This document shows positions 2,122 to 23,778 of a stretch of 32,197 bases of DNA, one piece after another. The notes under the pieces were generated by a model. It made no database searches and was not told the DNA's origin. It saw nothing but the letters and a program-made list of their open reading frames with translations. How positions within the stretch are numbered: the first letter of the stretch is position 1; each line of letters begins with the position of its first letter. Where the stretch lies: assembly GCA_945833805.1 (NCBI GenBank), contig CAMAGG010000006.1:1-32197 (forward strand), written 5' to 3'. This stretch comes from an uncultured Clostridia bacterium (GTDB lineage: Bacteria; Bacillota; Clostridia; Oscillospirales; Ruminococcaceae). The position numbers and the translations under genes were made by a program.

Positions 2122-2199
2122 TCATATTTCCGGCAGAATGAGCAGCAAAATCGCAAAGGTAACGGGTATTGCTGTAATGATTACGGGTAAGGAAATCAT
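2122..2199 (-). CDS. 25-aa hydrophobic micropeptide MISLPVIITAIPVTFAILLLILPEI, ATGA-coupled to virB4
   Basis: Start ATG overlaps the virB4 TGA stop (ATGA); complete ORF of 26 codons; fills the gap between virB4 and the 662-aa gene; absent from the ORF track because of its size. Confidence 0.45.
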   Translation of the reverse strand: MISLPVIITAIPVTFAILLLILPEI

Positions 2200-4010
2200 C
2201 TTCCGCCGCCCTTTCCGAAAATCGCAAGCCTTTCGTCCGAAAACTCAAACTTGACCTTGACCGCCTGCGAACCGACTTTCATCAGAGCAATTCCGCGCTG
2301 TTTTGCGGCGAGCAACTCATACTGTGCCTCATTAAGCGCAAATACCTCTTTTGTTTCGCGCAGGCTGTCGCCGTCAACTCCGAACAGCAGCTTGAATGAC
2401 GGCAAATCAAGAACCGCCTGTCCGTAAAGTCTTATCTGCGGGTCGAGGAAATCGGTGATTGATTGTGTTGCAACAACAATGCTGCCTTCGTACTTTCTTG
2501 CTCTTTTTTCAGCATTACGCAGAAATTCAAGGGATTGAGGTACGTTCGGGTCTATCATAGTCCAGCACTCGTCCGCAACAAGCATAATGCGCTCTGTGGT
2601 GTCGCGTGTGATTTGCTCCCAGCACCACGAAAGCACATTGAAATACTGTGCGGCAAGAACGGAACCTGACATTTGCACCAGCGACTTTGTATCCAGCACC
2701 ACGAAGGAGCTGTGCGGAGAAATGGTAGTGTGTCCGTTCCACAACCCATGGTCTGCGCCGTTTGCGGCAGACTCCAGATAGGTTTTCAAGTCCTCATAAT
2801 AAGGAGAATTGCTGTCCTTGCCGCACTTGCTCTCAATCAGGCGGTAAAGGTCGCCTATGGTTGGGAACTGCTCGTTCTTTAATCCGCGAACATCTGTATT
2901 CCATGTAATTCCGTACCGTGCGTATAGCTCGACAATGGTCTTGTTAAGCAAAGCGCGTAATCTATCGTCCATTGACGGTATGTATAGCTGGAAGAAAGTT
3001 TCAAGGGTTTTAAGGTGAATTGCCAAATCGCCTATTCCGTCGTTATCCGAGGTGTTCTTATCGTCCTCGTCCTTTGGCGCAGGGCGCACCTGCAACGGAT
3101 TGATTAGACCGCCGCGCCCTCCGGCAACGTCTATCCAGTCACCGTCAAAGTATTCGCCGCGGCACATATCCTTGTATTCACCTTCGGGGTCTATGATTAT
3201 GATTTTCGTACCGTGGGCGTATTCGCTGGCGACAATGTGCTTGGTCGCAGTAGATTTGCCCGTTCCTGTGCCGCCGATAATGGTTATATTGCTGTTGGTA
3301 CGGCTCTTTTCGCGCTTCCAGAGGTCAAGCAGAATAATTCCGCCGCCGCTGTCCTTTCCGAGATAGTAGCCGCTGCCGTCATTAAAGCCGGACGCAGCAA
3401 ATGGAAATCCGCCGACAAAGGTGGAAAGCGGAAACGCTCGACGGGAAATCTCGTTTATTTCCTTGTTCTGCGGATAGGTGGGGCTGATATGCTGATAGCC
3501 CTCTTTTTGGAGGTTAGCAAGTACGCGCAGGCGGCAGCCCACGGTGTTCGCAAGGGACACTACTCGCGTACAGCGTTCCCGGAAATCCTCCTCGTCATTT
3601 GAGATAACCATAATTGTGGTATTCCATACGCCCATAGTTTCGTTGTTCTGATCCATCTGCCGCATGGCGTTCTCCTGGTCATCAGCGGACTTTTCTGCTC
3701 TCTGGCGTTCAAGGGAGTCTTTCGTTGATAGCTGAATACCGCGCTGAGTGGTTATGTTCTTTGACATATTGGCGAGCAGTAAGCCGTTGTCGATTGGTTC
3801 ATAGTTTATAGCAACGATGGTACCGGGAAGATTGGTGAGCTTTGAGTACCAGCCATAATCGGGATTGGACGGATAGCTGATAACCGTATAGACACGGCAG
3901 AAATACTCGCCGAGCATAAAATCGTTGCGGTTAAATTCCAGACCAACAGGTGTTATCGCCGCCTGCAAAGCGGTGTTTATCTGTAATTCTTCAAATTCGT
4001 TCTGTTTCAT
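2196..4010 (-). CDS. virB4: VirB4-family conjugation ATPase
   Basis: Walker A GGTGTGKST, IIIIDPEGEY, Walker B-like RIMLVADECW, VVATQSITD; the likely start MKQNEF has SD AAAGGA upstream. Confidence 0.93.
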   Translation of the reverse strand: MKQNEFEELQINTALQAAITPVGLEFNRNDFMLGEYFCRVYTVISYPSNPDYGWYSKLTNLPGTIVAINYEPIDNGLLLANMSKNITTQRGIQLSTKDSLERQRAEKSADDQENAMRQMDQNNETMGVWNTTIMVISNDEEDFRERCTRVVSLANTVGCRLRVLANLQKEGYQHISPTYPQNKEINEISRRAFPLSTFVGGFPFAASGFNDGSGYYLGKDSGGGIILLDLWKREKSRTNSNITIIGGTGTGKSTATKHIVASEYAHGTKIIIIDPEGEYKDMCRGEYFDGDWIDVAGGRGGLINPLQVRPAPKDEDDKNTSDNDGIGDLAIHLKTLETFFQLYIPSMDDRLRALLNKTIVELYARYGITWNTDVRGLKNEQFPTIGDLYRLIESKCGKDSNSPYYEDLKTYLESAANGADHGLWNGHTTISPHSSFVVLDTKSLVQMSGSVLAAQYFNVLSWCWEQITRDTTERIMLVADECWTMIDPNVPQSLEFLRNAEKRARKYEGSIVVATQSITDFLDPQIRLYGQAVLDLPSFKLLFGVDGDSLRETKEVFALNEAQYELLAAKQRGIALMKVGSQAVKVKFEFSDERLAIFGKGGGR

Positions 4011-4021
4011 AGGGTGTCCTT

Positions 4022-4711
4022 TCATCTTGCTTTCAGCACGGAAATCTTCTCGTCAACGTCTGTGTTTTCAAGGTGAGCATAAGCGGGAATATTCACGAGA
4101 TTGCAAAGGCGAACGAGACCGCGGCTGTCAACAACGCTTGCTTTAATGCGGTTTTCGTTGTATATCTTGGCAAGTTCCTCGGCTCTTGCAACGATACCAC
4201 GCTCGTCCTCGCGCTTGGTGCTTTCCCAGATGATGATGTAATACTGACGTTCCAGCGTTTCACCTGACATTACCATTCCCGCAAGCTCGTCCATTTCTGC
4301 TTTTATCAGCTTTCGCCTGCCGCCGGCAGCATCGTTTTTCAGCTGTTCATAATCGCGGAGGGCGCGGGATATATCAACAGGACGGGATACCGCGATATAC
4401 TTGTATGGGTATTTTACAGAGGACAAGCGAGATGAGAGGTTTCGCTTTATAACCTCCTGCTCCGCGTTTGAAAACAGCTCGATTGACAGACCTTCGATCT
4501 GTACGGCTGCGATAATCATATCGTCAATAGTGTAAAGGCATTTTTCTCCTAGTGTTCGGGCATTTATAAACTCCTGCGCTGTGGCTTTTGCGGCTTTCTC
4601 CCGTTCTTCCTCGTCGTTGGACTTTATCCTTTTGGCAGCTTCGTTCCTGCGAAACCACCAGAGAAAACCGCCGCAAAGCGCCAGCACAATAAGGGAAATT
4701 GCTATCTGCAT
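4022..4711 (-). CDS. TrsD/TraD-like conjugation protein resembling the N-terminal region of VirB4 proteins
   Basis: N-terminal TM, ...EQEVIKRNLSSRLSSVKYPYKYIAVSRPVDIS..., size (229 aa) and position directly before virB4. Confidence 0.6.
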   Translation of the reverse strand: MQIAISLIVLALCGGFLWWFRRNEAAKRIKSNDEEEREKAAKATAQEFINARTLGEKCLYTIDDMIIAAVQIEGLSIELFSNAEQEVIKRNLSSRLSSVKYPYKYIAVSRPVDISRALRDYEQLKNDAAGGRRKLIKAEMDELAGMVMSGETLERQYYIIIWESTKREDERGIVARAEELAKIYNENRIKASVVDSRGLVRLCNLVNIPAYAHLENTDVDEKISVLKAR

Positions 4712-4731
4712 AGGCTTTGTTCCTTTCTGAA

Positions 4732-5763
4732 TTAAGGTTCAATCTCGTTTTCATCAGTCTGCTCGTTCTGCATGGATAAATGCGCCCATATCGCTGACGG
4801 ATATGCTTTAAGCGTATAATCCGGTGAGCTGCATAAATCAAGAACGTCTGCGGGGTTATAATCACCTATAAAGACAGAGCCTTTGTTCTCTCTCCATAGT
4901 TCTCCGGCAAGGCTAGTCTTGATACGAACGGGATTGCTTTCTGTGGTTTGCCCTTGAGCTGCGTCAATACTATCCACATTATCCATAATAAGCTGACCGT
5001 TTCCGTCTACAATGGCATATTTCACGTCGGGCGAAAGCCCGTAGTTTACGCTCTCCACAAGGTACTGCGGATTGTCGGAAAGGAGCTGCCTTCCGTCAAC
5101 TACTCTCCATTCGCCTTCAAGTCCGTCCGGAAGAATAACGCTCTCTCCGTTTATGCTGATAGGCTCATATCGGGTGTTGATGTAATGGTCATAGGCAGCG
5201 GGAATACGGTCAAAGGGGAATGATGTTCGCTTTTCTTTCACCTCGCCGCCGCTGAAATAATTCATAACAGCTACGGAACGCCTGTCCGCATTAAACTCAA
5301 TTTCAAGCACATTTTCAGAGCTTATCATATTGTCGATATAATCTGTTTGAGGGATAAACAGCGCCGATTTGGATAATGTTTCAGCAAGGCTGTCGGTATG
5401 AAACAGCATAAGTGCATCAGCCGTGTCCAGTTCATCACAGCGGAAATACAACTTTTTTCCGTTCTCAATCAACGAAATGAGAGTAATAGTGTTGGTAGTG
5501 CGGTTGTTTTCGTTCAGAAGATCGTTCGCGGTTTCATTCCTCATATCGCACCATTGGACAAGAATGTTGTATAAACAATCTTTCTGAAAATATGGGTGAT
5601 ATGTGTTTACAAGCTCTCTGTCAAGCCTGCTATCTCTGGTGCAATGCTTAACAAAATCGTATGTGTTTGTGCCTTCGTAAAACTCCGCAGGAAAATCTTT
5701 CGTTCCTTTTTCGGCAATCATGCGATTTATGAGAGAAATCACCTTAGAAACGCTGTATGTCAT
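4732..5763 (-). CDS. Hypothetical accessory protein with acidic C-terminus (QTDENEIEP)
   Basis: Intact ORF; ATG overlaps the preceding TGA (ATGA) with SD GGAGGA. Confidence 0.6.
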   Translation of the reverse strand: MTYSVSKVISLINRMIAEKGTKDFPAEFYEGTNTYDFVKHCTRDSRLDRELVNTYHPYFQKDCLYNILVQWCDMRNETANDLLNENNRTTNTITLISLIENGKKLYFRCDELDTADALMLFHTDSLAETLSKSALFIPQTDYIDNMISSENVLEIEFNADRRSVAVMNYFSGGEVKEKRTSFPFDRIPAAYDHYINTRYEPISINGESVILPDGLEGEWRVVDGRQLLSDNPQYLVESVNYGLSPDVKYAIVDGNGQLIMDNVDSIDAAQGQTTESNPVRIKTSLAGELWRENKGSVFIGDYNPADVLDLCSSPDYTLKAYPSAIWAHLSMQNEQTDENEIEP

Positions 5764-7028
5764 AGTAATTCGTTGTCCTCCCAATCGTAATCGTCATCAC
5801 CGCAGTAGCTTTCTTCATCTAAACCGAGAAATGAGGAGCGTTCAACAGAAAAACTGCCGCTTTCAAGCAGAGTAAGCTCGCCTACATTCTCTATCTCGTC
5901 CCAGAAATGAGAAATATGTTCAAGCTGCTCTGCGGTGGCATTTTCGGTTTCGCCCGTGATACCTGTCGGAGCAAAATGGTAGTATTCATACTCCGCATCA
6001 ACCGTGTCGCTCTGATTGTGGCAGTAGATGTATTCATCAGCTCTGTCGCTGTTTTTGAGATATTCCTCACAGTTGCAATAGCTGCCCTCAAAGAACACCT
6101 CTGTTTCATTCCCCTGTGACAATTCAAGGCGTGTGAATGTGATGGGATGGGAAATATTCAGAGTATTTACCAGTGCAGCGGTGTAGTCCTGTTCGTTGAG
6201 GTAAGAGTGCAGCTGAAGAAATTCCCTGCGGTCTTTACGCAGAAAATCTCTCATTATGCGGCGGTCATTGGTAAAGTCCCAGGTGGTTTTATCAAGTCCG
6301 AGTCCGCGCCGGGCTGCTTTTGTGAGCAGTTTCATAGCATATTCGTCTGCAACGCACACGGCGGCGGGTTTGAGAAAATCATTTACCGCCGCCTCAAAAC
6401 ATTCTGTTCCGCGGTCGGCAAGGTATTGGCGGCAGCTGCTCTGAAGGTGATTGAAAAAATCATAATCTCTTGAATAGGTCTTAGCAATATCCACAATATC
6501 CTCAAAATCCAGATGATTGGTCACTATCTGACCGTTTGAGGTGCTGTCGGGATTGTAGTACATCCAGCGCACCTCGTTCTTTTCATAGTCGATAAAGAAA
6601 ACCTCGCGATATTCAAGTTCGGGTTCGTTAAAAAGCATTATGCTGCCCATACTTGCACCGTCGGGCGTTGTTTCCCTGCCCATATTCGTGCGGATAAACA
6701 AATCAATGTAATTGAACGAAAATGAGTGCGTCTGTATCTCGTTAGATGTGCTATCTGCGGCAGTAATTCTACGGAACAGAAAATCGACCTCGAAAGCAAG
6801 GTAGTTTTCAGCGTTCTTGGCGGCGGTGTAATCATCATACGATGTGTGTGCGCCCATCTTCTCAATATCAATGAGAAAGAGCTGCTCCGCTTCGCAAAAG
6901 CTCTCCTGCTTACTGTATTCGTCGATTAGCCGCACCACATTTTCCGGTGAGATTGAAGGCGGACAGACGATGTATTCCGTTCGGTCTGCAACATTCAGTA
7001 ATATAAGGGTTGGTTTGTTTTGGCTCAT
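5760..7028 (-). CDS. Hypothetical accessory protein with acidic C-terminus (DDDYDWEDNELL)
   Basis: Intact ORF; start MSQNKPT with SD AAGGAG; coupled to the next gene. Confidence 0.6.
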   Translation of the reverse strand: MSQNKPTLILLNVADRTEYIVCPPSISPENVVRLIDEYSKQESFCEAEQLFLIDIEKMGAHTSYDDYTAAKNAENYLAFEVDFLFRRITAADSTSNEIQTHSFSFNYIDLFIRTNMGRETTPDGASMGSIMLFNEPELEYREVFFIDYEKNEVRWMYYNPDSTSNGQIVTNHLDFEDIVDIAKTYSRDYDFFNHLQSSCRQYLADRGTECFEAAVNDFLKPAAVCVADEYAMKLLTKAARRGLGLDKTTWDFTNDRRIMRDFLRKDRREFLQLHSYLNEQDYTAALVNTLNISHPITFTRLELSQGNETEVFFEGSYCNCEEYLKNSDRADEYIYCHNQSDTVDAEYEYYHFAPTGITGETENATAEQLEHISHFWDEIENVGELTLLESGSFSVERSSFLGLDEESYCGDDDYDWEDNELL

Positions 7029-7137
7029 TGGTGTTCTCCTTCTCAATTCCGATAACAGCTGCTAAAGGCTTAATATTTATTAGGTGAAGTCTATTCACCA
7101 TTGACTCTGCACCTCCATATAATTATTTTAGAACCTC

Positions 7138-7166
7138 TTGACAAACCCTATTAAATAGGGTATAAT
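7138..7166 (+). promoter_or_regulatory. Sigma-A type promoter of the TA module with palindromic operator between -35 and -10
   Basis: TTGACA-17 nt-TATAAT; perfect palindrome ACCCTATT-A-AATAGGGT at 7145-7161 inside the promoter. Confidence 0.85.
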
Positions 7167-7188
7167 AATATCAAAGGAGGGAATGCTA

Positions 7189-7530
7189 TTGACAAGAACA
7201 TTTGTTATGCTCCCCGAATTTGATAAGCAATGGGCAAATCTTGGGCTTACAGACAAGGATTTAAACAGATTGCAGCTTGAATTGCTTGAAAACCCACAAA
7301 AAGGCGATGTAATTCAAGGTACCGGTGGGCTGCGAAAGCTGCGCTTTGCCTTTGAAAACAGGGGAAAAAGCGGCAGCGCAAGAGTTGCCTATGTTGATTT
7401 TGTTGTCTATGAGAAAATCTACCTGATAACCGTTTATCAAAAGAACGAAAAGGAAAATCTATCACAAGCCGAAAGGAACAATATCAAACGAGTGATTGAG
7501 TTCCTGGACAAACAGCTGAAAGGAGAATGA
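7189..7530 (+). CDS. higB: RelE/HigB-family toxin
   Basis: ~113 aa; ...GDVIQGTGGLRKLRFAFENRGKSGSARVAYVDFVVYEKIYLITVYQKNEKENLSQAERNNIKRVIEFL; TTG start 8 nt after AGGAGG (alternative ATG at 7183). Confidence 0.85.
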   Translation: MTRTFVMLPEFDKQWANLGLTDKDLNRLQLELLENPQKGDVIQGTGGLRKLRFAFENRGKSGSARVAYVDFVVYEKIYLITVYQKNEKENLSQAERNNIKRVIEFLDKQLKGE

Positions 7531-7533
7531 TCC

Positions 7534-7845
7534 ATGAGTGTTTATGAAAGCATTATGCAGGGTCTTAATGAAGCCGTTGAGTACGAAAAAGGCAATGTCA
7601 AGGCTCGTACTGCAACGATTTCTGTTGCTCCTATTCCCGACATTGATTCCGATGAGGTAAAGAGCATAAGAAACTCCCTAAACATGACGCAGGTTATTTT
7701 TGCCGCTGTCATGGGTGTTTCCGTAAAGACCGTAGAGGCTTGGGAAAGCGGCACAAACACTCCGTCCGGAACAGCAAGAAGAATGCTTTATATGCTGAAA
7801 ACTGACCCGACTATCCCCGAAAAATTCAACCTCTATTGCAGATAA
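7534..7845 (+). CDS. higA: HigA-like XRE-family antitoxin
   Basis: HTH ...IRNSLNMTQVIFAAVMGVSVKTVEAWESGTNTPSGTARRML; 3 nt after the toxin stop. Confidence 0.88.
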   Translation: MSVYESIMQGLNEAVEYEKGNVKARTATISVAPIPDIDSDEVKSIRNSLNMTQVIFAAVMGVSVKTVEAWESGTNTPSGTARRMLYMLKTDPTIPEKFNLYCR

Positions 7846-7851
7846 GGCTAT

Positions 7852-7880
7852 CCGCTCCGAGTATTCGGGGCGGTTTCTTA
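7852..7880 (+). terminator. Rho-independent terminator of the TA module
   Basis: CCGCTCCGA-GTAT-TCGGGGCGG followed by TTTCTTATT. Confidence 0.7.
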
Positions 7881-7884
7881 TTCA

Positions 7885-8397
7885 TTAAAACTTTGCTTTC
7901 CATTCCGACTTTACCTCCAGCGTATAGCGCATTGGGGCAAGGCTTGACCATGCAAAATCATAGGGTATCTCAACCTCTATCGTTCCCTCAACGGAAAATT
8001 TCTCGGCTGTGCTTGTGTCGCCGGGAGCGCGGGGAGCCGGGGTTACTGAAAAGGTAATGTTCTTTATCGTGCATTGTGCTATTTCGCCGTTGGACATGGC
8101 ATTATTCATATACTGCATGATTTGCGCTTTAGTCGCGGTATGTGATTCACGCCACACATAGCCGCCTGTGTTAGAATAGCTTGCTGCCTGTCCCTCGCGC
8201 ACATTCTGATATAGTTTCGCATAATTTGACACCGAAACATGAATGATAGCGTCCTCATACTTATCGCGAATTGCTGCCACCTCGATATTTATGCGGATAA
8301 CCTCAAAAATACCAAAGGCAAGCAGCATTACAACGATAACAATAACCGAGGTCATGACCGTAGAAAAGCCCTTGTTGGAGCGTAACCTTTTAAGCAT
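7885..8397 (-). CDS. TadE/F-like pseudopilin
   Basis: MLKRLRSNKGFSTVMTSVIVIVVMLLAFGIFEVIRI N-terminal pilin-like segment; last gene of the tad block. Confidence 0.65.
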   Translation of the reverse strand: MLKRLRSNKGFSTVMTSVIVIVVMLLAFGIFEVIRINIEVAAIRDKYEDAIIHVSVSNYAKLYQNVREGQAASYSNTGGYVWRESHTATKAQIMQYMNNAMSNGEIAQCTIKNITFSVTPAPRAPGDTSTAEKFSVEGTIEVEIPYDFAWSSLAPMRYTLEVKSEWKAKF

Positions 8398-8797
8398 TTT
8401 TCCAGTACACCTCCGAGATACCGTTTGCGCTGGATGTAATTGTGATCGGGTGCCCGGTAAAAACAAAGAACGATAAGTCCACTTGTGTGGATACTGTCAC
8501 GGTGAATGTATCGCCTATCTGTATCTTACCGTTTTTCGACCATACAACGGTTGGGGTAATTCCACTGGTTTCGTTTAGCCGCTCAAGCCGTGCGGTGGTT
8601 TCGCTGCCTACTCTGCCGGCAATCTCTGCCTCACGGCAAAGCTCGTTCGCGTAATTGTTCAGAGTCATTTTCGTAAGGAAAACGGGGGCAACGGTGATGA
8701 TGAACATCAGCATCATTACCATTATCATCACGAAAATCGTAACGCCGATATAGGTACTGCCTTTCTTTTCAGCAAGCCGTTTTATGTACTTACGCAT
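8390..8797 (-). CDS. TadE/F-like pseudopilin (DUF4320-like)
   Basis: MRKYIKRLAEKKGSTYIGVTIFVMIMVMMLMFIITVAPVFL; overlaps the next gene by 8 nt. Confidence 0.65.
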   Translation of the reverse strand: MRKYIKRLAEKKGSTYIGVTIFVMIMVMMLMFIITVAPVFLTKMTLNNYANELCREAEIAGRVGSETTARLERLNETSGITPTVVWSKNGKIQIGDTFTVTVSTQVDLSFFVFTGHPITITSSANGISEVYWKNA

Positions 8798-8807
8798 ACG
8801 CACCTCC

Positions 8808-9755
8808 TTAAAAGCTGAACAGCGTACCAAAGCTGTCAAACATGGTTGTTCCGAGAACGACAACATAGAGGAGCAGCATTACGAACAGCAGAACCATTGA
8901 CAGCCTGTTGATTTTCGGCGGTATCTTCAGCGCAAAGTTGCGGAGTATCTGCTTTTGGTATTCGGAAAAACGATATATGAGCGTTTCCCAGTAGACGTGC
9001 GTATCCGAGCCACGCGCCATTTCGATAAGTCCTCTTGTTACCTCGGAAAGCTGAGTAGAGCCTATTCTTCCCTCAAATCTGGTGATAGCAGCCTCCCAAT
9101 TTGAAGAACGCATATCAGCTATGGTTATCTCTAATTCCTCGCGGAAATACGGTGAGAATGTGTCCTTGTGCTTTTCAAGAATGGAGAGGACATTGTGGTC
9201 GGTTTTTATCTCCTGCGCTATCGCGCCGACAAAGCGCGGAAGGTCGGTGTCTATCTGCTCGCGCTTCATTTTGATAGCCTCAGAGATTTTTTCCTGTGCG
9301 TTTGTGTACTGCAAAATGCCGAGGACTACCATGAGCAGAGCAAATATCACCGGAACAGCCTGTACATACTGATTGTCTATCATTGACGCGACAAGTGCGC
9401 CGAGGATATAAACGGGTATTCCGAGCAGAGCGTATGCGCCTGCTTTGACGATAGCTCTTGCCTCATAAAGCTGCGGCGACATGGATATGTGCGCTATTTT
9501 CAGATTAGCCTCTAACTGCTTTTGCCGTATATCCGACATTGGCAGCAGTTTTGACACAAACAGCGCCGTGTTGGTGTACATTTGCGAAAGCCCGTCCGGT
9601 GCGGGACGGTTGCGGGGTCCAATCGCTCTTATCGCCGCCGTTGTCTTTGAGGACGGCACTTTAAGCAGAACAAGCGCAAATGAATACGCACCTCCTGCAA
9701 AAAGCAGACAGGCGGCAAGCACCATAGCTTTCAGAGAAATGTCAATTAAGCTCAA
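8808..9755 (-). CDS. tadC: TadC-like type II/IV pilus inner-membrane platform protein
   Basis: Multi-TM protein with a T2SSF-like soluble region, directly after tadB. Confidence 0.75.
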   Translation of the reverse strand: MSLIDISLKAMVLAACLLFAGGAYSFALVLLKVPSSKTTAAIRAIGPRNRPAPDGLSQMYTNTALFVSKLLPMSDIRQKQLEANLKIAHISMSPQLYEARAIVKAGAYALLGIPVYILGALVASMIDNQYVQAVPVIFALLMVVLGILQYTNAQEKISEAIKMKREQIDTDLPRFVGAIAQEIKTDHNVLSILEKHKDTFSPYFREELEITIADMRSSNWEAAITRFEGRIGSTQLSEVTRGLIEMARGSDTHVYWETLIYRFSEYQKQILRNFALKIPPKINRLSMVLLFVMLLLYVVVLGTTMFDSFGTLFSF

Positions 9756-9760
9756 TCAGA

Positions 9761-10687
9761 TCACCTCTTATATTCAATGGGCTGGGTGTACTTGTATGTG
9801 AGTGCAATAACTATAATGACCGTAACAGCTACTACGCAATTCACTATCTGACCGGCAAGCGTTTCTGTGAGAACAGCAAACCAGTCTGCGTTGAGGAAAA
9901 AAATCAGCGGATAATTCGCAAGGACAAGCCCTATCATGGTGAACACCTCTTTGCGCGGCTGCATTATCATGTTTTTCAGTTCCGCATTAACTATGCGAAT
10001 ATCCGAAAGACGCGCCGCCAAAGGCTGGAGTGAGAATTTCTGTTCGGAATTATCCTGGCACTCTATCAGCGTATCGCACCATTCGTGGAAAATTTCGTTG
10101 TCAATCTCGTCCTTGAGCTGCTCGATAGCAAGTTTGACATTGGAGGAAATCATATCCACACGGGTGAGAAAGTTGATGAAAGCGTACTGTACAGGAGGGT
10201 TGATGTGGTCAATGGATTGTCTTACTGCATAGGCTATATCGCCGTTTGATATGTAATTCGTTGTGATGATGGACAACGCTGTTTCCAGTTCCTCTGCGAT
10301 ATGAGCCTTGTAGCTGGAAAGGAGCAGCTTAACATACACATACGGTATTACAAAAGCTGCGGCAATAAGCACTACTGAAATGAGAAGATTGTTGAACAAC
10401 GCACCAAGCAGCACTCCAACAACACCGCCGACAACCGCCGCGGTGATAAGCAGAGAAAACTTGTTTTGGGAATGCGTTGCCGCAAGAGCGTTCGTGATGT
10501 TGTCGATCATGCGCTGCATACGCGACTTTTTTATCTTGCCCTGCGTCACAAGTACCTTGTATTTAAGGCTGCGGTCACGGTGGAGCAGCGACATAATATC
10601 ATCTGTTATCCTCTGCGGAGAAAGTCCGAGAAGAATGACTACGGCGGCGGAAAGCAGCAGCGCCGCAAGCAGATAAATCACCTTCAT
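9761..10687 (-). CDS. tadB: TadB-like pilus platform protein (T2SSF)
   Basis: ~308 aa, TM pattern and ELETALSIITTNYISNGDIAYAVRQSI; adjacent to tadA. Confidence 0.75.
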   Translation of the reverse strand: MKVIYLLAALLLSAAVVILLGLSPQRITDDIMSLLHRDRSLKYKVLVTQGKIKKSRMQRMIDNITNALAATHSQNKFSLLITAAVVGGVVGVLLGALFNNLLISVVLIAAAFVIPYVYVKLLLSSYKAHIAEELETALSIITTNYISNGDIAYAVRQSIDHINPPVQYAFINFLTRVDMISSNVKLAIEQLKDEIDNEIFHEWCDTLIECQDNSEQKFSLQPLAARLSDIRIVNAELKNMIMQPRKEVFTMIGLVLANYPLIFFLNADWFAVLTETLAGQIVNCVVAVTVIIVIALTYKYTQPIEYKR

Positions 10688-10689
10688 AG

Positions 10690-12132
10690 TTATACCCTCC
10701 CGTATATTTCAAGCTTGTCCTTCGGTACGCCGTTGTCGCGCAGGCGCTTCATAAAGTTTTCGGTGGGCGGATTGACCTTGACGTGCTTGCCGATTATTCT
10801 CGCCGTTCCGTCCGGGTTACGCACCTCGTCAATAATATCGTAACGATAAAGGGTGCGGGTTTCGTACTTTCCTTTCTCACCCTGAATACATTCCGCTATT
10901 TCCATGATGTGACGCGATCCGTCATCAAGCTGCTTGAGGTAAATTCCGATAGGGAATGCCTCTGTTACAAGTGAGAGAATAGTATCAAGCGGCAGAGAGT
11001 GTGCCTGCAGGCAGAGCGTTGCAAGGCGGGTGTATATCTGGTGTGTGGAGGACGCATGTGTGGTCGTAAGAACGGTGTGTCCTGTTCGGGCTGCTTCCTG
11101 CGCCTGCCACGCTTCCTCGTTTTTCATTTCAGCAACGCAAATTGAGTTAGGGTGCATGGTTAGGCACATAGTAAGCAGCTTTGCTAATGTTACGTCCCTC
11201 GCCGGGTCATCGGTTTCCTTTGTGACGAGATGAAGAACGTCGTTGATAACATTACCGTTTTCGTCCCGCTTAACAAGGTCAAATTCTCTCACGGATTTTT
11301 CAAGCGTGATCAGGCGCTTGTTGTTCGGGTAGTTTGACATTATATCCGCCATAATAGTGGTCTTTCCTGAGCCTGTTTCACCAGCATAACACTGCGAAAC
11401 GCCGTGAATAAAGCAGGTCACAAGGAAATCGTATTCCTCCTCGCTGACCATGCCTGACTCGATAAACTGCTCACGGGTTATCTTTGAGGGATTGACGATA
11501 CGGATAGACGCGCAGGCACCGCGGGCATTGTCGCAAATATCCGTATAGCCTGCGGTCACTCTGATATTAGAACCGAGAAAGCCTGTCGCAATAGGTTTTG
11601 AGCTATCCCATGTGATGTGATTGTGGTGCAGCAGACGTTTCAGCACGTCCACAAGATGTCCTGCGTCCTTGAAATGCTCCGCCTTGAAACGTGCGCCCTT
11701 TGCGGGAATAATCTCCACATCGTCCCAGCCGTTGATGTTGATTTCCTCAATATCCTTTCGGAGCAGCCAAGGCGTGAGGATAGAATACTCCGCCATTTCT
11801 ATGTAGAGCTTGTCTGCGACCTCGCCCAGCGTCATATTCGGGACATAATAGTTGTTGTCCTTCATATACTGCTTGATAAGGCGTTTCATCATATCCTTTT
11901 TGTCGGCTTCGTAAAGCTCCACAGCGTAGTTTTCAGCCATGTGCTGCTGTACGCGGGAAAGAAGGGTGTCGAAAGGAATGAAGGAGCGTTCTATTTCCTT
12001 TACGCTTTTATCGGATATCTCAGAGAAATCTGACTTGTCCTTTTTCTTGCGGGATTTAGTTTCCGCAGCTTCCTTTACCTCCGCATATTCACCTTCGTTA
12101 TCTGCGGTCTTTTTCTTGAAAAAACTGAGCAT
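10690..12132 (-). CDS. tadA: TadA/CpaF-type secretion ATPase (VirB11-like superfamily)
   Basis: Walker A GETGSGKTT, Asp box/Walker B ICVAEMKNEEAWQAQEAARTGHTVLTTTHASS. Confidence 0.92.
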   Translation of the reverse strand: MLSFFKKKTADNEGEYAEVKEAAETKSRKKKDKSDFSEISDKSVKEIERSFIPFDTLLSRVQQHMAENYAVELYEADKKDMMKRLIKQYMKDNNYYVPNMTLGEVADKLYIEMAEYSILTPWLLRKDIEEININGWDDVEIIPAKGARFKAEHFKDAGHLVDVLKRLLHHNHITWDSSKPIATGFLGSNIRVTAGYTDICDNARGACASIRIVNPSKITREQFIESGMVSEEEYDFLVTCFIHGVSQCYAGETGSGKTTIMADIMSNYPNNKRLITLEKSVREFDLVKRDENGNVINDVLHLVTKETDDPARDVTLAKLLTMCLTMHPNSICVAEMKNEEAWQAQEAARTGHTVLTTTHASSTHQIYTRLATLCLQAHSLPLDTILSLVTEAFPIGIYLKQLDDGSRHIMEIAECIQGEKGKYETRTLYRYDIIDEVRNPDGTARIIGKHVKVNPPTENFMKRLRDNGVPKDKLEIYGRV

Positions 12133-12872
12133 TACTTCTTACCTCCGATAAGCGATTTTGCGAGCTTGTTTATTGCGTGGTTATATGCGCTGTCCGACAC
12201 TCCGTTTCGGAGGATAGCCGCCTGATTGAACGCCTCGGCGGCGTGGGTGCTGAAAGGTATCTCGCCGGATATTCTGCCGAGGGCATTACGCATAGCGGCA
12301 ACGTCCTGCTTGAACGAATTTCCCAGCGCAAGGGCGCGGATAAAGTGCTTGTATTGATACTGCTCACTCTGTAAAACAGGCTCCTGTGAGCCGTCAAACA
12401 CAAGTCCGTTAATATCCGCGGTGAACAGCTCCACGGTCTTTGTTGCAGACATGATAGACCATGCTGTCATTTTTGAGGTGATAACGGTTGACATACAATC
12501 AATTATCACATAGTCGGCGCTGCTGCGGAGATAGGAGAAAATCTGTGCAAGGCGCGTATCATCGGGCGGAGGGAAAGAATTCTCGTTCTCACGGATATTG
12601 TAGCCAAGCACCATTATCTTATCAGTAATGGGCAGCAGATTTCGACGTAAGTCGGTTTCCTCAAACGAAACATTCGACAGGCACTTTCCGAGAGAACCGT
12701 CAAACTTGCTTTCGTGCGGTGCAACAATAGGTATCAGCGGTTTGGTGGTATCAGTTCCGACAACGATAATATCCGCTTTCGGCTCAATGCGGGAAATGTT
12801 GTGTGCAAGAGCAAGAGAGGTCGTTGTCTTGTATGCGCCCGAGCTGCCGTATATTGAAAAAATCTTACCCAA
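12132..12872 (-). CDS. tadZ: TadZ/CpaE-like MinD-family ATPase
   Basis: MGKIFSIYGSSGAYKTTTSLALAHN deviant P-loop; YVIIDCMSTV; 1-nt overlap with tadA. Confidence 0.7.
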   Translation of the reverse strand: MGKIFSIYGSSGAYKTTTSLALAHNISRIEPKADIIVVGTDTTKPLIPIVAPHESKFDGSLGKCLSNVSFEETDLRRNLLPITDKIMVLGYNIRENENSFPPPDDTRLAQIFSYLRSSADYVIIDCMSTVITSKMTAWSIMSATKTVELFTADINGLVFDGSQEPVLQSEQYQYKHFIRALALGNSFKQDVAAMRNALGRISGEIPFSTHAAEAFNQAAILRNGVSDSAYNHAINKLAKSLIGGKK

Positions 12873-13679
12873 TTATTCCACCTCGCTCTCTGTGCTTTCG
12901 TCATAAATCTCGGCGGTATTAAAAACCGCCTCTGTTGTTTCATAGTCAACTACACCGAGCAGCTCACGCTGGGCGGCAAGGTATTCGGCTTTATGTTCGC
13001 TGTCGCCGCGGCAGACAAATACTGCATGGAGCGTTGTGTTCTCGCACTCGGCAAGTTTGAGTGCCTGTGTGCGGTCCTGACATATCACGGTTATCGTTGC
13101 ATAAAGCGCCTGTTCCTCATCATCGTCCTCGGCAGCATTTACCTGGTCTGCATTGTAGGTATCGTCCGAGCCGTTGTCCGCGGTAGTCGCTAAAACCTCG
13201 ATATACTGTAATTCATCGTAGATTATAGCCTCATCGTCATTGTCCTCGTTGACAGAGATTATCTGAATTATGTCGCCTGTCTGGAGCTTACCGGAAAGAC
13301 CGTTAGCAAAGCTGCGTACTGTTACTGACATAGCGGTTTCGTTCACTCCAAGCTGACGGAGCAGAGTGTCCGAGGTGTCGATGGTGTCGGACAGCTTGTT
13401 TGCGGAGAATGTGTCGCCGGAAAACATAGCGGCTACCGTGTACTTGCCAACGATCTGTTCAGGGTCGGTGATGATATTATCGGGAAGATTGAGAGTGCCA
13501 ACCTCGACGGCGGAAAGCATAGAGGGCTGTATCTGCGCTCCCTGGGGAACGTCCTCTTTGAGTCGGATAACGGTTGTTTTCTGTTCAAGCACAACAGAAA
13601 ACAGCGGCGTTATGCCAAAACAAAGAATGATAGCAAGCACAATGAGAATTATGCCGATCAGTGTACGATTTTTAAGCAT
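12873..13679 (-). CDS. cpaB: CpaB/RcpC-like SAF-domain pilus protein
   Basis: N-terminal TM, VIRLKEDVPQGAQIQPSMLSAVEVGTLNLPDNIITDPEQIVGKYTVAAMFSGDTF. Confidence 0.85.
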   Translation of the reverse strand: MLKNRTLIGIILIVLAIILCFGITPLFSVVLEQKTTVIRLKEDVPQGAQIQPSMLSAVEVGTLNLPDNIITDPEQIVGKYTVAAMFSGDTFSANKLSDTIDTSDTLLRQLGVNETAMSVTVRSFANGLSGKLQTGDIIQIISVNEDNDDEAIIYDELQYIEVLATTADNGSDDTYNADQVNAAEDDDEEQALYATITVICQDRTQALKLAECENTTLHAVFVCRGDSEHKAEYLAAQRELLGVVDYETTEAVFNTAEIYDESTESEVE

Positions 13680-14076
13680 AGAGAAAAACCTCCAATAGAA
13701 AAACAACCGCATTAGCAGCGCAAATAAACGGTGCAAGCGGCATTTCTTGTTCTTTTTTGATGTGTGCGAATATTTTTGCTGAAATCAGCGCAAGCAGCAC
13801 CGCAATAAATCCCGGAACAGCGCCGAGCGCAAAGCCAAAGGCAGCGCACAATTTAACATCACCCATACCTATATCCGCTATTAGATTTGCTGCGAAAAGC
13901 GTTATAAATAAAGCAAGCAAGCCTGTTATTCTTGCTGAAAGAGATAGCTCATTCAGAAACGGGCTTGCTGCAACAATTATGAACGGGGCAAAGTTGCTTA
14001 TTTCGCGGGTGCGTATATCTTCTGCGGATATATGGGTAAGGTATATGGTGAGTATCACCGATATTGTTAAAACCAT
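13672..14076 (-). CDS. tadV: TadV/CpaA-type prepilin peptidase
   Basis: Multi-TM, GMGDVK motif, SAEDIRTREIS aspartate motif. Confidence 0.88.
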   Translation of the reverse strand: MVLTISVILTIYLTHISAEDIRTREISNFAPFIIVAASPFLNELSLSARITGLLALFITLFAANLIADIGMGDVKLCAAFGFALGAVPGFIAVLLALISAKIFAHIKKEQEMPLAPFICAANAVVFLLEVFLYA

Positions 14077-14393
14077 TTTGATTTGTACACATACCGGTAT
14101 CGCCGCTGTGAACGGGCAAAGCGCACCATGTTTTTAACCTGTCCCACTACGGAAAGGCGGGTAATGGGGTCTTTGCGCGTCATCATAATGCTGCCGGCAG
14201 CGCCGATCATCATTGTGAAAACCAGAGCCGCAAGGTTGCCCGTGATAAGCATAAACACAGCCGCGACAACGCCAAAGCAGGCTATTCCGATAAAGCATTG
14301 TTTAAGCTCCGTTCTGCCAAAGCCGACAAAGTATTCCGGCTCGATGTTAAGTCCGTAGGGAATGTATAGCTTTCTGCGATTTTCGTTTTCCAT
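14067..14393 (-). CDS. PrgI/VirB3-like small conjugation membrane protein
   Basis: YIPYGLNIEPEYFVGFGRTELKQ... two TM helices, ...VYKSKW; overlaps the tadV start by 10 nt. Confidence 0.65.
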   Translation of the reverse strand: MENENRRKLYIPYGLNIEPEYFVGFGRTELKQCFIGIACFGVVAAVFMLITGNLAALVFTMMIGAAGSIMMTRKDPITRLSVVGQVKNMVRFARSQRRYRYVYKSKWF

Positions 14394-14406
14394 ATTACAC
14401 CGCCTT

Positions 14407-14622
14407 TCAGGTGAGATAGCTGACGATTATGTTCTCGATTAAAAACGGGAGCTGCGCTATTACCGCAAAAACAACCGTGTTCTTTAAGCGTTTCTTGTAC
14501 TGCGGAGCCTCGTCCGATTCGTGCGTGAGCTTCAGAAAAATGTATATGGCTCGCATAGCAAGTCCGCTGTTTATAGCTATCTGAAGATAGCTGCTGAGCT
14601 GGTCTATCTGTGATGTGTCCAT
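14407..14622 (-). CDS. Small conjugation-operon membrane protein
   Basis: 71 aa, two hydrophobic segments, conserved position between VirB6-like and PrgI-like genes. Confidence 0.55.
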   Translation of the reverse strand: MDTSQIDQLSSYLQIAINSGLAMRAIYIFLKLTHESDEAPQYKKRLKNTVVFAVIAQLPFLIENIIVSYLT

Positions 14623-14631
14623 ACTTTCACC

Positions 14632-15480
14632 TTACTTTATTGCTCCGCGCACCATTTGTGCGACTCTGACCGTCTGGAAGAATGTATTTCCTGCCGTTCC
14701 GCCGCCTGTCGGCACAAGAAATTCACGCAGGATACGGGGCGCTGTGGTTGCCGCAAACATACAAGCAATACCCCAAGGAATATTGGTTATATCTATCACG
14801 TTTGACGATAGCAGGAATGCAAGTCCTATCTTTAACAGCATTATCTGCACGATTGTAGTCACAAACGCTCTAACAAACTGTGTGACATAGTTGCGGAAAA
14901 TTCCCTTGTCGTTTTCAAGCAGACCTAAACACGCAAGCGGTATTCCGGCAACCATTACCTGCATCTCCACTCCCCTTGACATAAACTGAAACAGTAATAT
15001 GAGATAGAAGATGAAGAACACAAGGCAGGCGAGTACCGGAACAATACCCAGAGAAGCTATGCCTGTCAAGACGGTAGCTGTGTAGTTGGTATCTGCTCCA
15101 AGCTGTGATAGAATTGTGGTCGTTACACTATCGCAAACCTCTACGAAAATATCGTATATCCAGCGGAACATAAGCGCCGTTGCGATTGCTTTCACAAAAT
15201 TCACAAGCAGCATTGTAGGGTCGGTGTCCGGATTACCGTCCGTCCATAGCACATACAAGTCAAAGCCTTTTTTGAGAAATTTCAGCACCATAAGCGATAG
15301 TGCAAGCGAAAACGCCATATCCGAAACGGTTGTAAAGAAATTAACGCCTGTGCATTGCGTCATCATCTCGTCTGCATGGAAAACCATGTCGTACAGACCG
15401 CCAAGCACCAATTCATTCATGAAAGTGGTTACTATTCCGGTTATGAGTGCAACAACAAGCGTTATAATGATAAATACCAT
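14632..15480 (-). CDS. TrbL/VirB6-like polytopic T4SS protein
   Basis: Multiple TM helices; position and size typical of Firmicutes T4SS loci; start MVFIIITLVV. Confidence 0.75.
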   Translation of the reverse strand: MVFIIITLVVALITGIVTTFMNELVLGGLYDMVFHADEMMTQCTGVNFFTTVSDMAFSLALSLMVLKFLKKGFDLYVLWTDGNPDTDPTMLLVNFVKAIATALMFRWIYDIFVEVCDSVTTTILSQLGADTNYTATVLTGIASLGIVPVLACLVFFIFYLILLFQFMSRGVEMQVMVAGIPLACLGLLENDKGIFRNYVTQFVRAFVTTIVQIMLLKIGLAFLLSSNVIDITNIPWGIACMFAATTAPRILREFLVPTGGGTAGNTFFQTVRVAQMVRGAIK

Positions 15481-15504
15481 AAGTGTGTTTCCTTTCCAAA
15501 GCAA

Positions 15505-15561
15505 GAGCCGCAGGGGTGAACGCTCGGCGGAAATGACCGAGGCGTCACGCCTCTGCGGCTC
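15505..15561 (-). promoter_or_regulatory. Long intercistronic hairpin between Flp-like pilin and VirB6-like genes (attenuator or processing candidate)
   Basis: GAGCCGCAG...CTGCGGCTC outer arms enclosing GAGGCG-TCA-CGCCTC. Confidence 0.55.
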
Positions 15562-15591
15562 GCTTTATGCGGATTGGATAGAGGGTGGGTA

Positions 15592-15828
15592 TCAGCCCAT
15601 ATTGAACATGGATGTAACCTTGTCCTCGGTAGAGGGCATGATAACATTGTTCATCAGAGCAATCAGTCCTACCAGCAGAATGCCGCCGAGAACGACGCCG
15701 ATAATGATAACGATAGCGTGTTCGGAAACGGAGCCGCGGGTTTCCTCAATCTTGTTCTTTGCTGCCGCAACAGCCATAACTGCCTTGTTGATTGCCTTAG
15801 TCTTGATAGCGTTGATCTTGTTCATCAT
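15592..15828 (-). CDS. Flp-like (DUF6133-type) pilin
   Basis: 78 aa; leader then RGSVSEHAIVIIIGVVLGGILLVGLIALMNNVIMP, acidic residue preceding a single hydrophobic helix. Confidence 0.65.
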   Translation of the reverse strand: MMNKINAIKTKAINKAVMAVAAAKNKIEETRGSVSEHAIVIIIGVVLGGILLVGLIALMNNVIMPSTEDKVTSMFNMG

Positions 15829-15857
15829 AGTTTTGTTCCTCCAAAAATTGTAGTAGT

Positions 15858-16238
15858 TTATCTTTCAGGCTCGTCGAAAGACGGAGCGTTGAAATCCTGT
15901 GTGTTATCTGCGGTGTTCTCACCGGTGTTGGTATTGGCATTCGCATTTGCGCGGAGCTGTTTCATGAGCGTTGAGTAAGCGCCGATTACAACATTGCTTA
16001 TCTCGTCGCGCATCTCTTTGGTCGTGGGGAAAGCCGTATCAACATACTTCTTATCGCCGTTCTGGTCGGTGTAGGACACGTTCGGCATATTGACGAAAAT
16101 GCCCTTTGAACCGTTCATCACGGAAAGACCTCTCACAACGAACGAATTGTCAAGGGTAATGCTGACAGTAGCAAGACGACTGCCGTTCGGATTGTTCGAG
16201 AGCTTAATGTCCTTTTCGGGATTGCAGCTTATCTTCAT
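15858..16238 (-). CDS. SpoVG-family protein
   Basis: LATVSITLDNSFVVRGLSVMNGSKGIFVNMPNVSYTDQNGDKKYVDTAFPTTKEMRDEISNVVIGAY. Confidence 0.85.
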   Translation of the reverse strand: MKISCNPEKDIKLSNNPNGSRLATVSITLDNSFVVRGLSVMNGSKGIFVNMPNVSYTDQNGDKKYVDTAFPTTKEMRDEISNVVIGAYSTLMKQLRANANANTNTGENTADNTQDFNAPSFDEPER

Positions 16239-16318
16239 TATGTGTTCCTCCTTTGCTGCGAGATGTGGCTGCGGTGAACATTTTGTCGGGGGGGGAGGTA
16301 TCCACGAAAGGCGTAACA

Positions 16319-16666
16319 TTATGTACCACCTCCAAAGTAACCTGTGATTACCGTAAGCAGAGAGGTCGCTACTACCGCACCGATAGTGGAAACTACTGCG
16401 GTAATAATGCGGTTATCCCACTTTTTCCTGTCCATTTCGTCTGCGGCAGAACGCCTGATACAGAAATAGACAATGCAGACCGTGCCGACTACTGCGGCAA
16501 GTCCCAGCAGAATAGTTGACGCGTCATTCAGCAGGTTTTTTAAGCCTGTCGCAACGACAGAGCCGCCTAAACCGCCGCCATCTTCTGCGAAAGCGGTAAC
16601 GCTTAACGCTGCTGTCATGACCGCCGCAGAAACAGCGGAAATGATACCCTTGACCTTACTTGTCAT
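16319..16666 (-). CDS. VirB2/TrbC-like T4SS pilin-type protein
   Basis: Signal peptide ending AFA, two TM helices, Gly-rich C-terminus; directly after virD4. Confidence 0.65.
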   Translation of the reverse strand: MTSKVKGIISAVSAAVMTAALSVTAFAEDGGGLGGSVVATGLKNLLNDASTILLGLAAVVGTVCIVYFCIRRSAADEMDRKKWDNRIITAVVSTIGAVVATSLLTVITGYFGGGT

Positions 16667-16680
16667 CTTTTTTCCTCCTT

Positions 16681-18759
16681 TCAGAACATAGAATTGTGAC
16701 CTTCGTTTTCCGCATTAACAGCTTTACGCGTCTTTGCAGCTAATTCCAGCCACGGTTTCCATAGTTTTATCTCAATCTCGCCGTCATAGCTTGGTCTTGC
16801 ATTTTCATCAAGCTCGATAAGCCGCTGATTATGCTTTTTGTCGCCCAGACCAAGCATATCGTTGAATGCCCATTTGGAAATATCTGGCGACTCCATAACG
16901 GCGGGAGAGTTGTTAGAGATAACGAGCGAATATGGGCGTTCAAAACCGTTCATTATTTCCTCTGCAGTAAGCAGGCTGCGCTCTATCAGCGACACATTCA
17001 CAGAGCTGGACGGGTTTGAATACTTTTGTGCGGAGCTGCCGAGTGAATAGGTTAGGGTTGTGTACTTTCCCATTGCCTCGGAAAGTTCCTTGTTGGTTTC
17101 AATATCGGTGCTTTGGAGATATATCCAATAGCGGCAGTTTCCTTTTGCTATGTTGGCAACCTCCTCGCCGTACACAAGTTTAAGCTGTGCAAAGCTCTGC
17201 AAAAACAAATTCCACCTTATGCCGTAGCCGCGCGATACCGTGAGTTTTTTCTCAAAGGTTTCTATCTTTGAAAAGTTACCAAATTCGTCCAGCACGAAAT
17301 TTACACGATAGCGCAGGCGGTTTCCTGTTTTCTTCGCAGCAACAACAAGCAATTCATACTGCTGTGCCACAAGTATTGTGGTGATAGGATAGAATGTTTC
17401 ACGCTCATCGGGAAGAACATAGAACAATGCTTTTTTAGCCTCTGTACCGAACGATGCAAGGTCAAAATCTGACTTTGATGTAATTCGGTATGTGGTCGGA
17501 TTGGTGAACAGGCGGAGCGTTGTGAGTGCAGAGGTATAAAAGGACGCTGCCGTTTTATCGGGAGCGACATTTGCGATAGCAAGCGTTTGCCGTGCGGGGT
17601 GGTTGTCTGGGATACTGCGGAGGTACTTTTTGTACTGTATCTCTTTCTCTCCCTGCGCGGGAACAGACATATTGCTGATGAATTCGTACACGTTGGTGAG
17701 GTTCTGATATTCGGGGCAGTCTTGGTTATCGTAGACAACTGCCAGAATGGACGCAACGATGATAGCCATTTCTCCGTTAGTCCAGATAGGCTCGCCCTTT
17801 TCGCTTTTTTCTACAAGAATGTTCACCATATCCCATGCCTTTTCGCTTGCCTCGTTGATTTCACCTCTGTTTACCGCGTCGATTATCGGCTGCAAGGGAT
17901 TGTAGCACATAGATTTCCGCGGCGAATTAAAGTCGATAACGCAGACGGTATAACCGAGCGTTTCAAGGAAGGTGTGCATATAGTGGTAAAGCTCACCCTT
18001 CGGGTCGGAAACCACAATACCTTCACCGGCAAGAGCCAGCGCACACAATGTTTGAAGAACAAGCGTTCGTGTTTTGCCGCAGCCTGTCGAACCGATAGTC
18101 ATTGTGTGAACGTCATCGGTTATACAGCTTATCTGCTCCTTGATCGCTGTTGCATTTCTGCCGAGGACTATACCTGCCTCATCAAAGATATTGCCTGTTA
18201 TGCCTATGGGCTTTGCATGGTAATACTGTCCGTTGTCAACAGCTTCAGCTCGCCGCAAACCTTCCGCAAGCAGCCGTTTTATTTTATCGTCTGCCAGAAA
18301 CAGCACAACGGCGGGAAATATTCTTGCTTTTTCCTCATCGGGCATAAACCACGCAGAACCATGCTGCTTTTGTCCGTAGGGTTTTGGTATCTCAATTTTC
18401 GGAGTGACTTGATACATTTCCGCTTGATAGGGTTTGAGAGAACTAAAAAAGTAGACAAAGCAGACTAACGCCGCCATAGTTTCAAATATCCAGAACAGCT
18501 TCCGCGGCTGTTCGTTGGATAACGCTCCGTCTATCAGCGAAAATATATTGAGGTAGTTCCTCTCTGAAAGGCTCCGGTGAGTGAATGCGTCGTTGATAAG
18601 ATTTGCAAGGAACAGCGCGGCGAATGTGCCAATAATCACAAACAAGCAGCATAGGAACAGCTTATGTGAATTGTCCTTTATCAACCGTTTCAACGCACTT
18701 TTTAACCGCTGTGGAAACTTTGCAATATCCTCGCGGCAGTTTCTTGTGTTTCGTTTCAT
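16681..18759 (-). CDS. virD4: VirD4/TraG-type coupling protein
   Basis: N-terminal TMs, Walker A GSTGCGKTR, GIVVSDPKGELYHYM, VNFVLDEFGNF. Confidence 0.95.
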   Translation of the reverse strand: MKRNTRNCREDIAKFPQRLKSALKRLIKDNSHKLFLCCLFVIIGTFAALFLANLINDAFTHRSLSERNYLNIFSLIDGALSNEQPRKLFWIFETMAALVCFVYFFSSLKPYQAEMYQVTPKIEIPKPYGQKQHGSAWFMPDEEKARIFPAVVLFLADDKIKRLLAEGLRRAEAVDNGQYYHAKPIGITGNIFDEAGIVLGRNATAIKEQISCITDDVHTMTIGSTGCGKTRTLVLQTLCALALAGEGIVVSDPKGELYHYMHTFLETLGYTVCVIDFNSPRKSMCYNPLQPIIDAVNRGEINEASEKAWDMVNILVEKSEKGEPIWTNGEMAIIVASILAVVYDNQDCPEYQNLTNVYEFISNMSVPAQGEKEIQYKKYLRSIPDNHPARQTLAIANVAPDKTAASFYTSALTTLRLFTNPTTYRITSKSDFDLASFGTEAKKALFYVLPDERETFYPITTILVAQQYELLVVAAKKTGNRLRYRVNFVLDEFGNFSKIETFEKKLTVSRGYGIRWNLFLQSFAQLKLVYGEEVANIAKGNCRYWIYLQSTDIETNKELSEAMGKYTTLTYSLGSSAQKYSNPSSSVNVSLIERSLLTAEEIMNGFERPYSLVISNNSPAVMESPDISKWAFNDMLGLGDKKHNQRLIELDENARPSYDGEIEIKLWKPWLELAAKTRKAVNAENEGHNSMF

Positions 18760-19199: not shown

Positions 19200-19220
19200 T
19201 TTGTTTCCCTCCATAAACAG

Positions 19221-19254: not shown

Positions 19255-19270
19255 ATATTTATTGTAGTTC

Positions 19271-23761: not shown

Positions 23762-23778
23762 TTTCTTATCCTTTCCAC

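Follow-up and report, generated by a model that had tools for sequence, protein, structure and literature searches.

Type IV secretion systems (T4SSs) of Gram-positive bacteria are not known to deploy a retractable pilus, and outside sex-pheromone and aggregation plasmids the way in which they reach a recipient is largely unexplained. In TP114, mating pairs depend on a plasmid-borne type IVb pilus for their stabilisation in broth and in the gut (PMC9045228), and in Myxococcus a Tad pilus acts together with a secretion system where two cells touch (PMC12075869). Tad loci are common on plasmids, where they are the most frequent filament type and the one most often transferred (PMC6668835). In the literature, the plasmid pBMB67 figures as no more than putatively conjugative (PMC9673590). 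Here, I analysed a 32,197-bp stretch of DNA (the window hereafter), which is one entire linear contig (C6, CAMAGG010000006.1) from the metagenome-assembled genome (MAG; 2.69 Mb, 287 contigs) of a gut bacterium of the Clostridia. The analysis confirmed that, in a conjugative T4SS operon of Gram-positive type, a monoderm-type Tad/Flp pilus block separates prgI from virB4. The contig ends did not overlap, which ruled out a circular molecule.

All T4SS and tad genes of the window were found on the minus strand. In transcription order, a secreted-protein gene (19271-21499) and the gene at 18756-19298 are followed by virD4, virB2-like, spoVG, DUF6133 Flp-like, virB6/TrbL, a small transmembrane (TM) protein gene and prgI, and then by tadV, cpaB, tadZ, tadA, tadB, tadC, DUF4320 and tadF; after an inserted toxin-antitoxin (TA) pair on the plus strand and two genes that the preliminary description had called unknowns, the series closes with the VirB4 N-terminal domain, VirB4 and the gene at 121-2109. 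Genes from virD4 to tadF overlap or are separated by at most ~90 bp, and this spacing fits a single transcription unit. Matches to Pfam and NCBIfam bore out the gene order and coordinates that the preliminary description had given. PrgI, TadZ, TadB and TadC scored under the Pfam cut-offs and were assigned via synteny, iterated profiles and profile-profile comparison.

The same order was found again in other genomes, which makes the arrangement more than chance. Regions flanking related TadA and VirB4 genes were gathered and annotated with iterated profiles; a TadA-profile search of genome contigs contributed 5 useful loci out of 80, the rest being mostly unrelated secretion ATPases. The conserved order was virD4-virB2-(spoVG)-DUF6133-virB6-small TM-prgI-tadV-cpaB-tadZ-tadA-tadB-tadC-DUF4320-tadF-VirB4N-VirB4, and it recurred in 11 loci, 9 of them contiguous from prgI to virB4 (the window, G011C13, G011C17, G340, G075, G387, G204C1, G149 and the IMG/VR locus L299). 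G149 and L299 have extra genes within the conserved run, the virD4 end of G075 lies beyond its contig, and G099 and G353 keep the embedded order as far as the contig end. DUF6133 was not found by iterated-profile annotation in the G353 and G149 loci. Genomes with the embedded order span seven genera and six families of one class, so the claim that the Tad block is embedded in a Gram-positive T4SS operon held beyond the window. The secreted-protein gene often stands between tadF and VirB4N in the relatives. In the B. thuringiensis plasmid pBMB67 and in G416, the tad block lies beside the T4SS and not inside it, and in G125 a T4SS of the same type runs from prgI directly to VirB4N-VirB4 without tad genes; G200 is near-identical to G125 by the VirB4 tree. 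A further candidate for a tad-free relative or empty site, G335, was dropped: transposase-like open reading frames (ORFs) flank its virB4, and the rest of the T4SS is gone nearby. Some relatives sit in megabase contigs and others on circular plasmids, and the element in the window is either an integrative and conjugative element or a plasmid. As a separate observation, L299 (IMGVR_UViG_3300017589_000168), an 87-kb contig held in a viral collection, is a conjugative element with Tad and T4SS genes and was probably misclassified as viral.

Trees of TadA and VirB4 placed this pairing in a wider frame. A TadA clade of 41 loci includes the window (support 1.0 at the G373 node), and T4SS core genes were found near TadA in 31 of its 32 informative loci; nine further loci were too truncated to judge and were excluded from this count, and for the sole exception, G309, just ~20 kb per side was examined. 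T4SS core genes were nearby in none of the control Tad loci (0/9) and in 3/10 loci of the sister group, which includes chromosomal Tad loci. A one-sided Fisher test computed from the counts 31/32 and 0/9 gave about 3e-8, a value that is descriptive only because the loci are mutually related and the sample was partly picked via this query. On the VirB4 tree, Tad partners appeared in at least four lineages: the window type, group II, the pLS20 type (with pTPHSE1, pCd5_2 and pLIS1) and pESS17301a/G373. These lineages include isolate plasmids of Terrisporobacter and Clostridioides. Reduced sets, with CpaF/VirB11 and two platform-like genes, with or without DUF4320, adjoin pLS20-type T4SSs in Bacillus and Enterococcus plasmids, and their ATPases branch outside the 41-locus TadA clade. 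Two such plasmids, E. faecium p51_4_65kb (L298) and B. thuringiensis pBtiUFT6.51.1 (L292), carry CpaF/VirB11, two platform-like and VirB2-like genes directly upstream of the T4SS, and the E. faecium set also has an annotated DUF4320. The MAG of the window has one more Tad block, unlike the first and belonging to group II (DUF6133-spoVG-DUF6133-tadV...tadC), at 95-6393 of contig C80 (L042); two Tad-bearing mobile elements may thus share one genome.

Genome G011 has two elements with the embedded arrangement, and their comparison was informative about the cassette as a whole. Nucleotide identity between the two was 61-80% in the T4SS genes (two windows of the comparison reached 85-87%), rose to 81-92% from cpaB to tadF, and fell to 61-69% at VirB4N. 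Since identity is higher from cpaB to tadF than in the flanking T4SS genes, this pattern suggests that the tad cassette was exchanged as one piece between the two elements. Ratios of non-synonymous to synonymous substitution (dN/dS) in tad genes were 0.05-0.15 for the G011 pair and 0.13-0.27 for G340/G387, and similar in T4SS genes; the tad genes are under purifying selection and are therefore not decaying cargo. Taken at the sequence level, the tad cassette would be a selected, exchangeable module.

Within the Tad block, the machinery genes were assigned as follows. TadV (13672-14076), an A24 prepilin peptidase (Peptidase_A24, 8e-11), retains its catalytic GMGD motif and the first of the two catalytic Asp residues, that of DIRTREI (D20), intact. 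CpaB/RcpC (12873-13736, probable start 13679) matched RcpC (3e-8, over the cut-off) and SAF (4e-7), and the MinD/ParA-like TadZ (12132-12872; AAA_31, 0.0045; minD_arch, 0.0017) always lies between cpaB and tadA. The assembly ATPase TadA (10690-12132; T2SSE, 1e-20) has an intact Walker A (GETGSGKT), Asp box, Walker B and His box. The platform proteins TadB (9761-10687) and TadC (8808-9755) matched control Tad platform proteins in profile-profile comparison (hhalign) with probabilities of 93-99, and Pfam T2SSF stayed under threshold: TadB had no Pfam match and a probability of 93.7 to a Gram-negative Tad platform protein, while TadC reached 93-99 to control TadC, with T2SSF at 0.004 in two homologues.

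Three genes are candidates for the subunits of the filament. The DUF6133 gene (15592-15828; 78 amino acids (aa); PF19629, 5e-11) encodes the candidate Flp-like major pilin, with one TM helix; members of its family are 70-110 aa long, begin with positive charges, carry the leader motif G-E-G-[FY]-[VI]-D and contain one hydrophobic helix. DUF4320 (8390-8866, probable start 8797; PF14208, 2e-30) has in its family the leader RGEGYID, which is common to the DUF6133 family pattern. An AlphaFold2 model of DUF4320 was pilin-like, with a long N-terminal helix and a beta sheet (pLDDT 78); it had no significant match in the PDB, and the protein scored only 0.07 with Pfam TadE. On these features, DUF6133 is read as a Flp-like pilin and DUF4320 as a TadE-like minor pilin. 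The adjoining putative tadF-like minor pilin gene (7885-8466, probable start 8397) belongs to a conserved family next to DUF4320 and has a G-[FS]-S-x leader and a TM helix. A secreted protein with an N-terminal signal-like helix is encoded at 19271-21499, just beyond the span 2196-18759 first described as the hybrid operon. Its family accompanies Tad in mobile as well as chromosomal loci and shares a C-terminal motif (TP-x-W-x-PDG-x-Y ... D-x-WTPAGML ... DDWHI), which makes this Tad-linked surface protein a candidate pilus-associated adhesin. An adhesin fold could not be claimed for it because the structure model was too poor (pLDDT 38).

On the T4SS side, virD4 (16681-18759) encodes a coupling protein of the CD1115 family (T4SS-DNA_transf, 8e-54; NF045973, 315 bits against a cut-off of 250), followed by a virB2-like T4SS pilin (16319-16666; T4SS_pilin PF18895, 5e-7, over the cut-off), virB6/TrbL (14632-15504; TrbL_4, 6e-88) and a small 71-aa TM protein (14407-14622), which has no Pfam match and keeps its position in all embedded loci and in the tad-free G125. 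The PrgI-like (VirB3-like) gene (14067-14393) scored 15 bits, under the cut-off of 27, and is syntenic and part of one iterated profile family. The virB4 ATPase part (2196-4025; 609 aa; P-loop_TraG, 9e-15, over the cut-off) covers only positions 285-888 of the 894-residue NF045975 model, which indicates a VirB4 split in two ORFs. The gene at 4022-4711, previously taken for a separate trsD-like subunit, is most likely the detached VirB4 N-terminal domain: three full-length VirB4 proteins were matched near their N-terminal end by its family profile (3e-18 to 4e-10), and the hhalign probability was 97.8. Downstream of virB4, a TM protein with a large extracellular part (121-2109) is kept in both G011 elements and has no family match. 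The SpoVG-like gene (15858-16319; PF04026, 3e-18) has its probable start at 16238, with a Shine-Dalgarno sequence ahead of it. A SpoVG-family gene adjoins the Flp-like pilin gene in many loci (in the window, and in L036 and L042-L044), frequently with a pilin copy on either side; SpoVG, a regulator that binds nucleic acids, may govern expression of the pilin.

From this genomic evidence, the element probably makes its own adhesive Tad pilus for mating-pair formation, and the proposal to this effect in the preliminary description stood as the best reading. It is supported by the recurring gene order, the T4SS genes near TadA in the 41-locus clade, the cassette's several VirB4 partner lineages, purifying selection, the intact catalytic motifs of TadA and TadV, the cassette exchange in G011, and the precedents of TP114 and Myxococcus. 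The operon would encode two machines, a DNA-moving T4SS of VirD4, split VirB4, TrbL and PrgI, and a Tad (type IVc) pilus that is complete but for a secretin. TadV would mature the DUF6133, DUF4320 and TadF prepilins, and TadA would drive TadB and TadC to polymerise the DUF6133 filament. This filament, perhaps together with the 19271-21499 family protein, would stick the donor to a recipient, after which the T4SS would transfer DNA, even outside a dense biofilm. Among experimentally tested systems, the closest analogue would be the type IV pilus of IncI R64/TP114, with Tad components here taking its place in a cell that has one membrane, and the recurring pairing suggests that mobile elements bring their own means of catching partner cells. 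Several points weigh against this reading. The window's own pilin is one residue off the consensus leader: aligned to the family leader G|EG[FY][VI]D, the window has R-G-S-V-S-E, with the acidic residue aligned and the Gly shifted by one, which makes cleavage of this pilin uncertain. No relaxase was found in the 32,197-bp window, and the contig is incomplete; a candidate, a MobL relaxase with 44% identity to the relaxase of the G011C13 element, is encoded elsewhere in the MAG, on contig C177, and may belong to the window's element. The related T4SSs of G125 and G200 show that Tad is dispensable for some T4SSs, and the pilus could instead help the carrier adhere to host cells or surfaces.

This last point is the core of an alternative in which the element carries the Tad pilus as cargo, a fitness trait for adhesion to host, surface or biofilm with no role in conjugation. 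Such a cargo would agree with Tad being the filament type most found on plasmids and most transferred (PMC6668835), with the existence of sister Tad loci without a nearby T4SS in the same class, and with the occurrence of the T4SS without Tad in G125. Cargo, however, usually lies outside a transfer operon, whereas this block is inside, co-oriented and nearly gapless; different families keep it at this embedded site, and more than one T4SS type is associated with it, so that a mere cargo role appears unlikely. A chance or decayed juxtaposition, whether from a single insertion of a tad locus of the chromosome or from an assembly join, is barely credible. It could draw on the MAG origin of the contig, the TA insertion and the lack of a relaxase on the contig, but the same order exists in finished-scale contigs and in other genera, the ORFs are intact and under purifying selection, and isolate plasmids have the same pairing. 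The arrangement is shared by further genera and families, and the Tad cassette adjoins several T4SS types; on these grounds the synteny survey refuted a single insertion or assembly join, and with it the one-off chromosomal insertion that the preliminary description had named as its own refutation. The survey showed that T4SS and tad genes co-occur on many mobile elements.

A different kind of alternative makes Tad and T4SS physically one: TadA would be the missing VirB11, or the Tad platform and the T4SS channel would share one envelope site. TadA does belong to the VirB11/CpaF superfamily and matched the NCBIfam VirB11 model at 1e-33, though under the cut-off; the window holds no other VirB11, and the Bacillus and Enterococcus plasmids likewise have CpaF/VirB11 and TadB/C-like genes adjoining a T4SS. 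Against solved structures, however, the TadA profile matched CpaF at 1e-44 over its full length and VirB11 at 4e-25, and in the tree TadA groups with CpaF, apart from VirB11/TrbB. It is also accompanied by TadB, and nearly always by TadC, wherever the flanks are long enough. As the same T4SS type exists in G125 and G200 with no TadA between prgI and virB4, the earlier suggestion that TadA may double as the VirB11 of the T4SS is not needed; the sequence does not support it either, and a shared machine of this kind seems highly improbable. The fullest version of it, with the Tad motor and platform at the transfer site, a pilus that draws or fixes the recipient directly to the T4SS channel, and a TadA that powers both, is very unlikely.

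The TA pair consists of a RelE-type toxin (7183-7530, plus strand; PF06296, 5e-7) and a helix-turn-helix antitoxin (7534-7845, plus strand; HTH_3, 1e-6; MqsA, 4e-5), neither of which occurs in relatives, and is preceded by its own perfect sigma-70 box, TTGACA-N17-TATAAT, at 7138-7166. In a promoter and terminator scan, this TA promoter alone stood out, and other promoter-like sites were at the level of shuffled sequence. The TA module and two unknowns listed earlier as parts of the operon are present in the window but absent from its two closest relatives, in which the VirB4 N-domain directly follows tadF; by this comparison, the TA pair (7183-7845) and the two genes at 4732-7046 form a window-specific insertion. 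No NlpC/P60 or lysozyme domain of a cell-wall hydrolase (CD1107/VirB1) was found in the window proteins scanned, and the contig stops 120 bp past the last gene. Two C5-cytosine methyltransferase genes of the window (25579-27075 and 29717-31213) are possibly anti-restriction genes. A short direct repeat at 27162-27300 (KWVAEGHFS / EMGSKGTF several times in the minus-strand translation), with a related phrase at the start of 23009-23833, resembles an intergenic repeat translated as if it were coding. Downstream of virB4 on G011 contig C13 (~41998-51142 of the joined context, L028/L029), apparent defence cargo was recognised by eye: a Z1-like ATPase, a Vsr-like nuclease, a PLD-like protein and a C5-methyltransferase.

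If the preferred reading is true, the widespread Tad-bearing elements of Clostridia and Bacilli are a general and genetically testable answer to the problem of recipient contact in Gram-positive bacteria. It would also give functions to DUF6133 (a Flp-like pilin) and DUF4320 (a TadE-like minor pilin), and name a candidate pilus-associated surface protein. Tad would further help to recognise conjugative elements overlooked by present typing schemes: PLSDB types pTPHSE1, pCd5_2, pESS17301a and the MB08-C2-2 plasmid as 'non-mobilizable'. No description of Tad genes inside a Gram-positive T4SS operon was found in the open-licence literature, which is weak evidence of novelty.

Compared with known systems, the window shares with Tad/Flp (type IVc) pili a single locus that holds a CpaF-type TadA, TadB, TadC, TadZ, CpaB, an A24 peptidase, a candidate small Flp-like pilin and putative TadE/F-like minor pilins. 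Unlike these, it has no secretin, TadD or RcpB, as expected in a monoderm, its pilin families DUF6133 and DUF4320 are of unknown function in Pfam, and the locus lies inside a T4SS operon. The T4SS resembles the CD1115/Tn1549-like VirD4-type Gram-positive systems and that of pBMB67 in its VirD4 (CD1115 family), VirB2-like, TrbL, PrgI and VirB4 proteins; pBMB67 has the order VirD4-hyp-TrbL-PrgI-hyp-VirB4 with its Tad block ~9-10 kb downstream, whereas the block of the window is inside, between PrgI and VirB4. VirB4 is two polypeptides in the window, and pBMB67 also has a short gene ahead of VirB4. Clostridioides pCd5_2 and Terrisporobacter pTPHSE1 carry the same DUF4320-type Tad cassette adjoining T4SS genes, but their T4SS is of the pLS20 type and the cassette lies upstream of virD4, not embedded. 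The Kil system of Myxococcus likewise joins a Tad pilus with a secretion system, a needleless type III secretion system (T3SS*), at cell-cell contact (PMC12075869), yet it serves predation, is chromosomal and diderm, and has a T3SS-like partner. IncI R64/TP114 are conjugative elements with their own type IV filament and T4SS, in which mating pairs are stabilised, and recipients selected, by the pilus (PMC9045228); theirs is a Gram-negative type IVb pilus with a secretin, a PilV shufflon and unrelated assembly genes.

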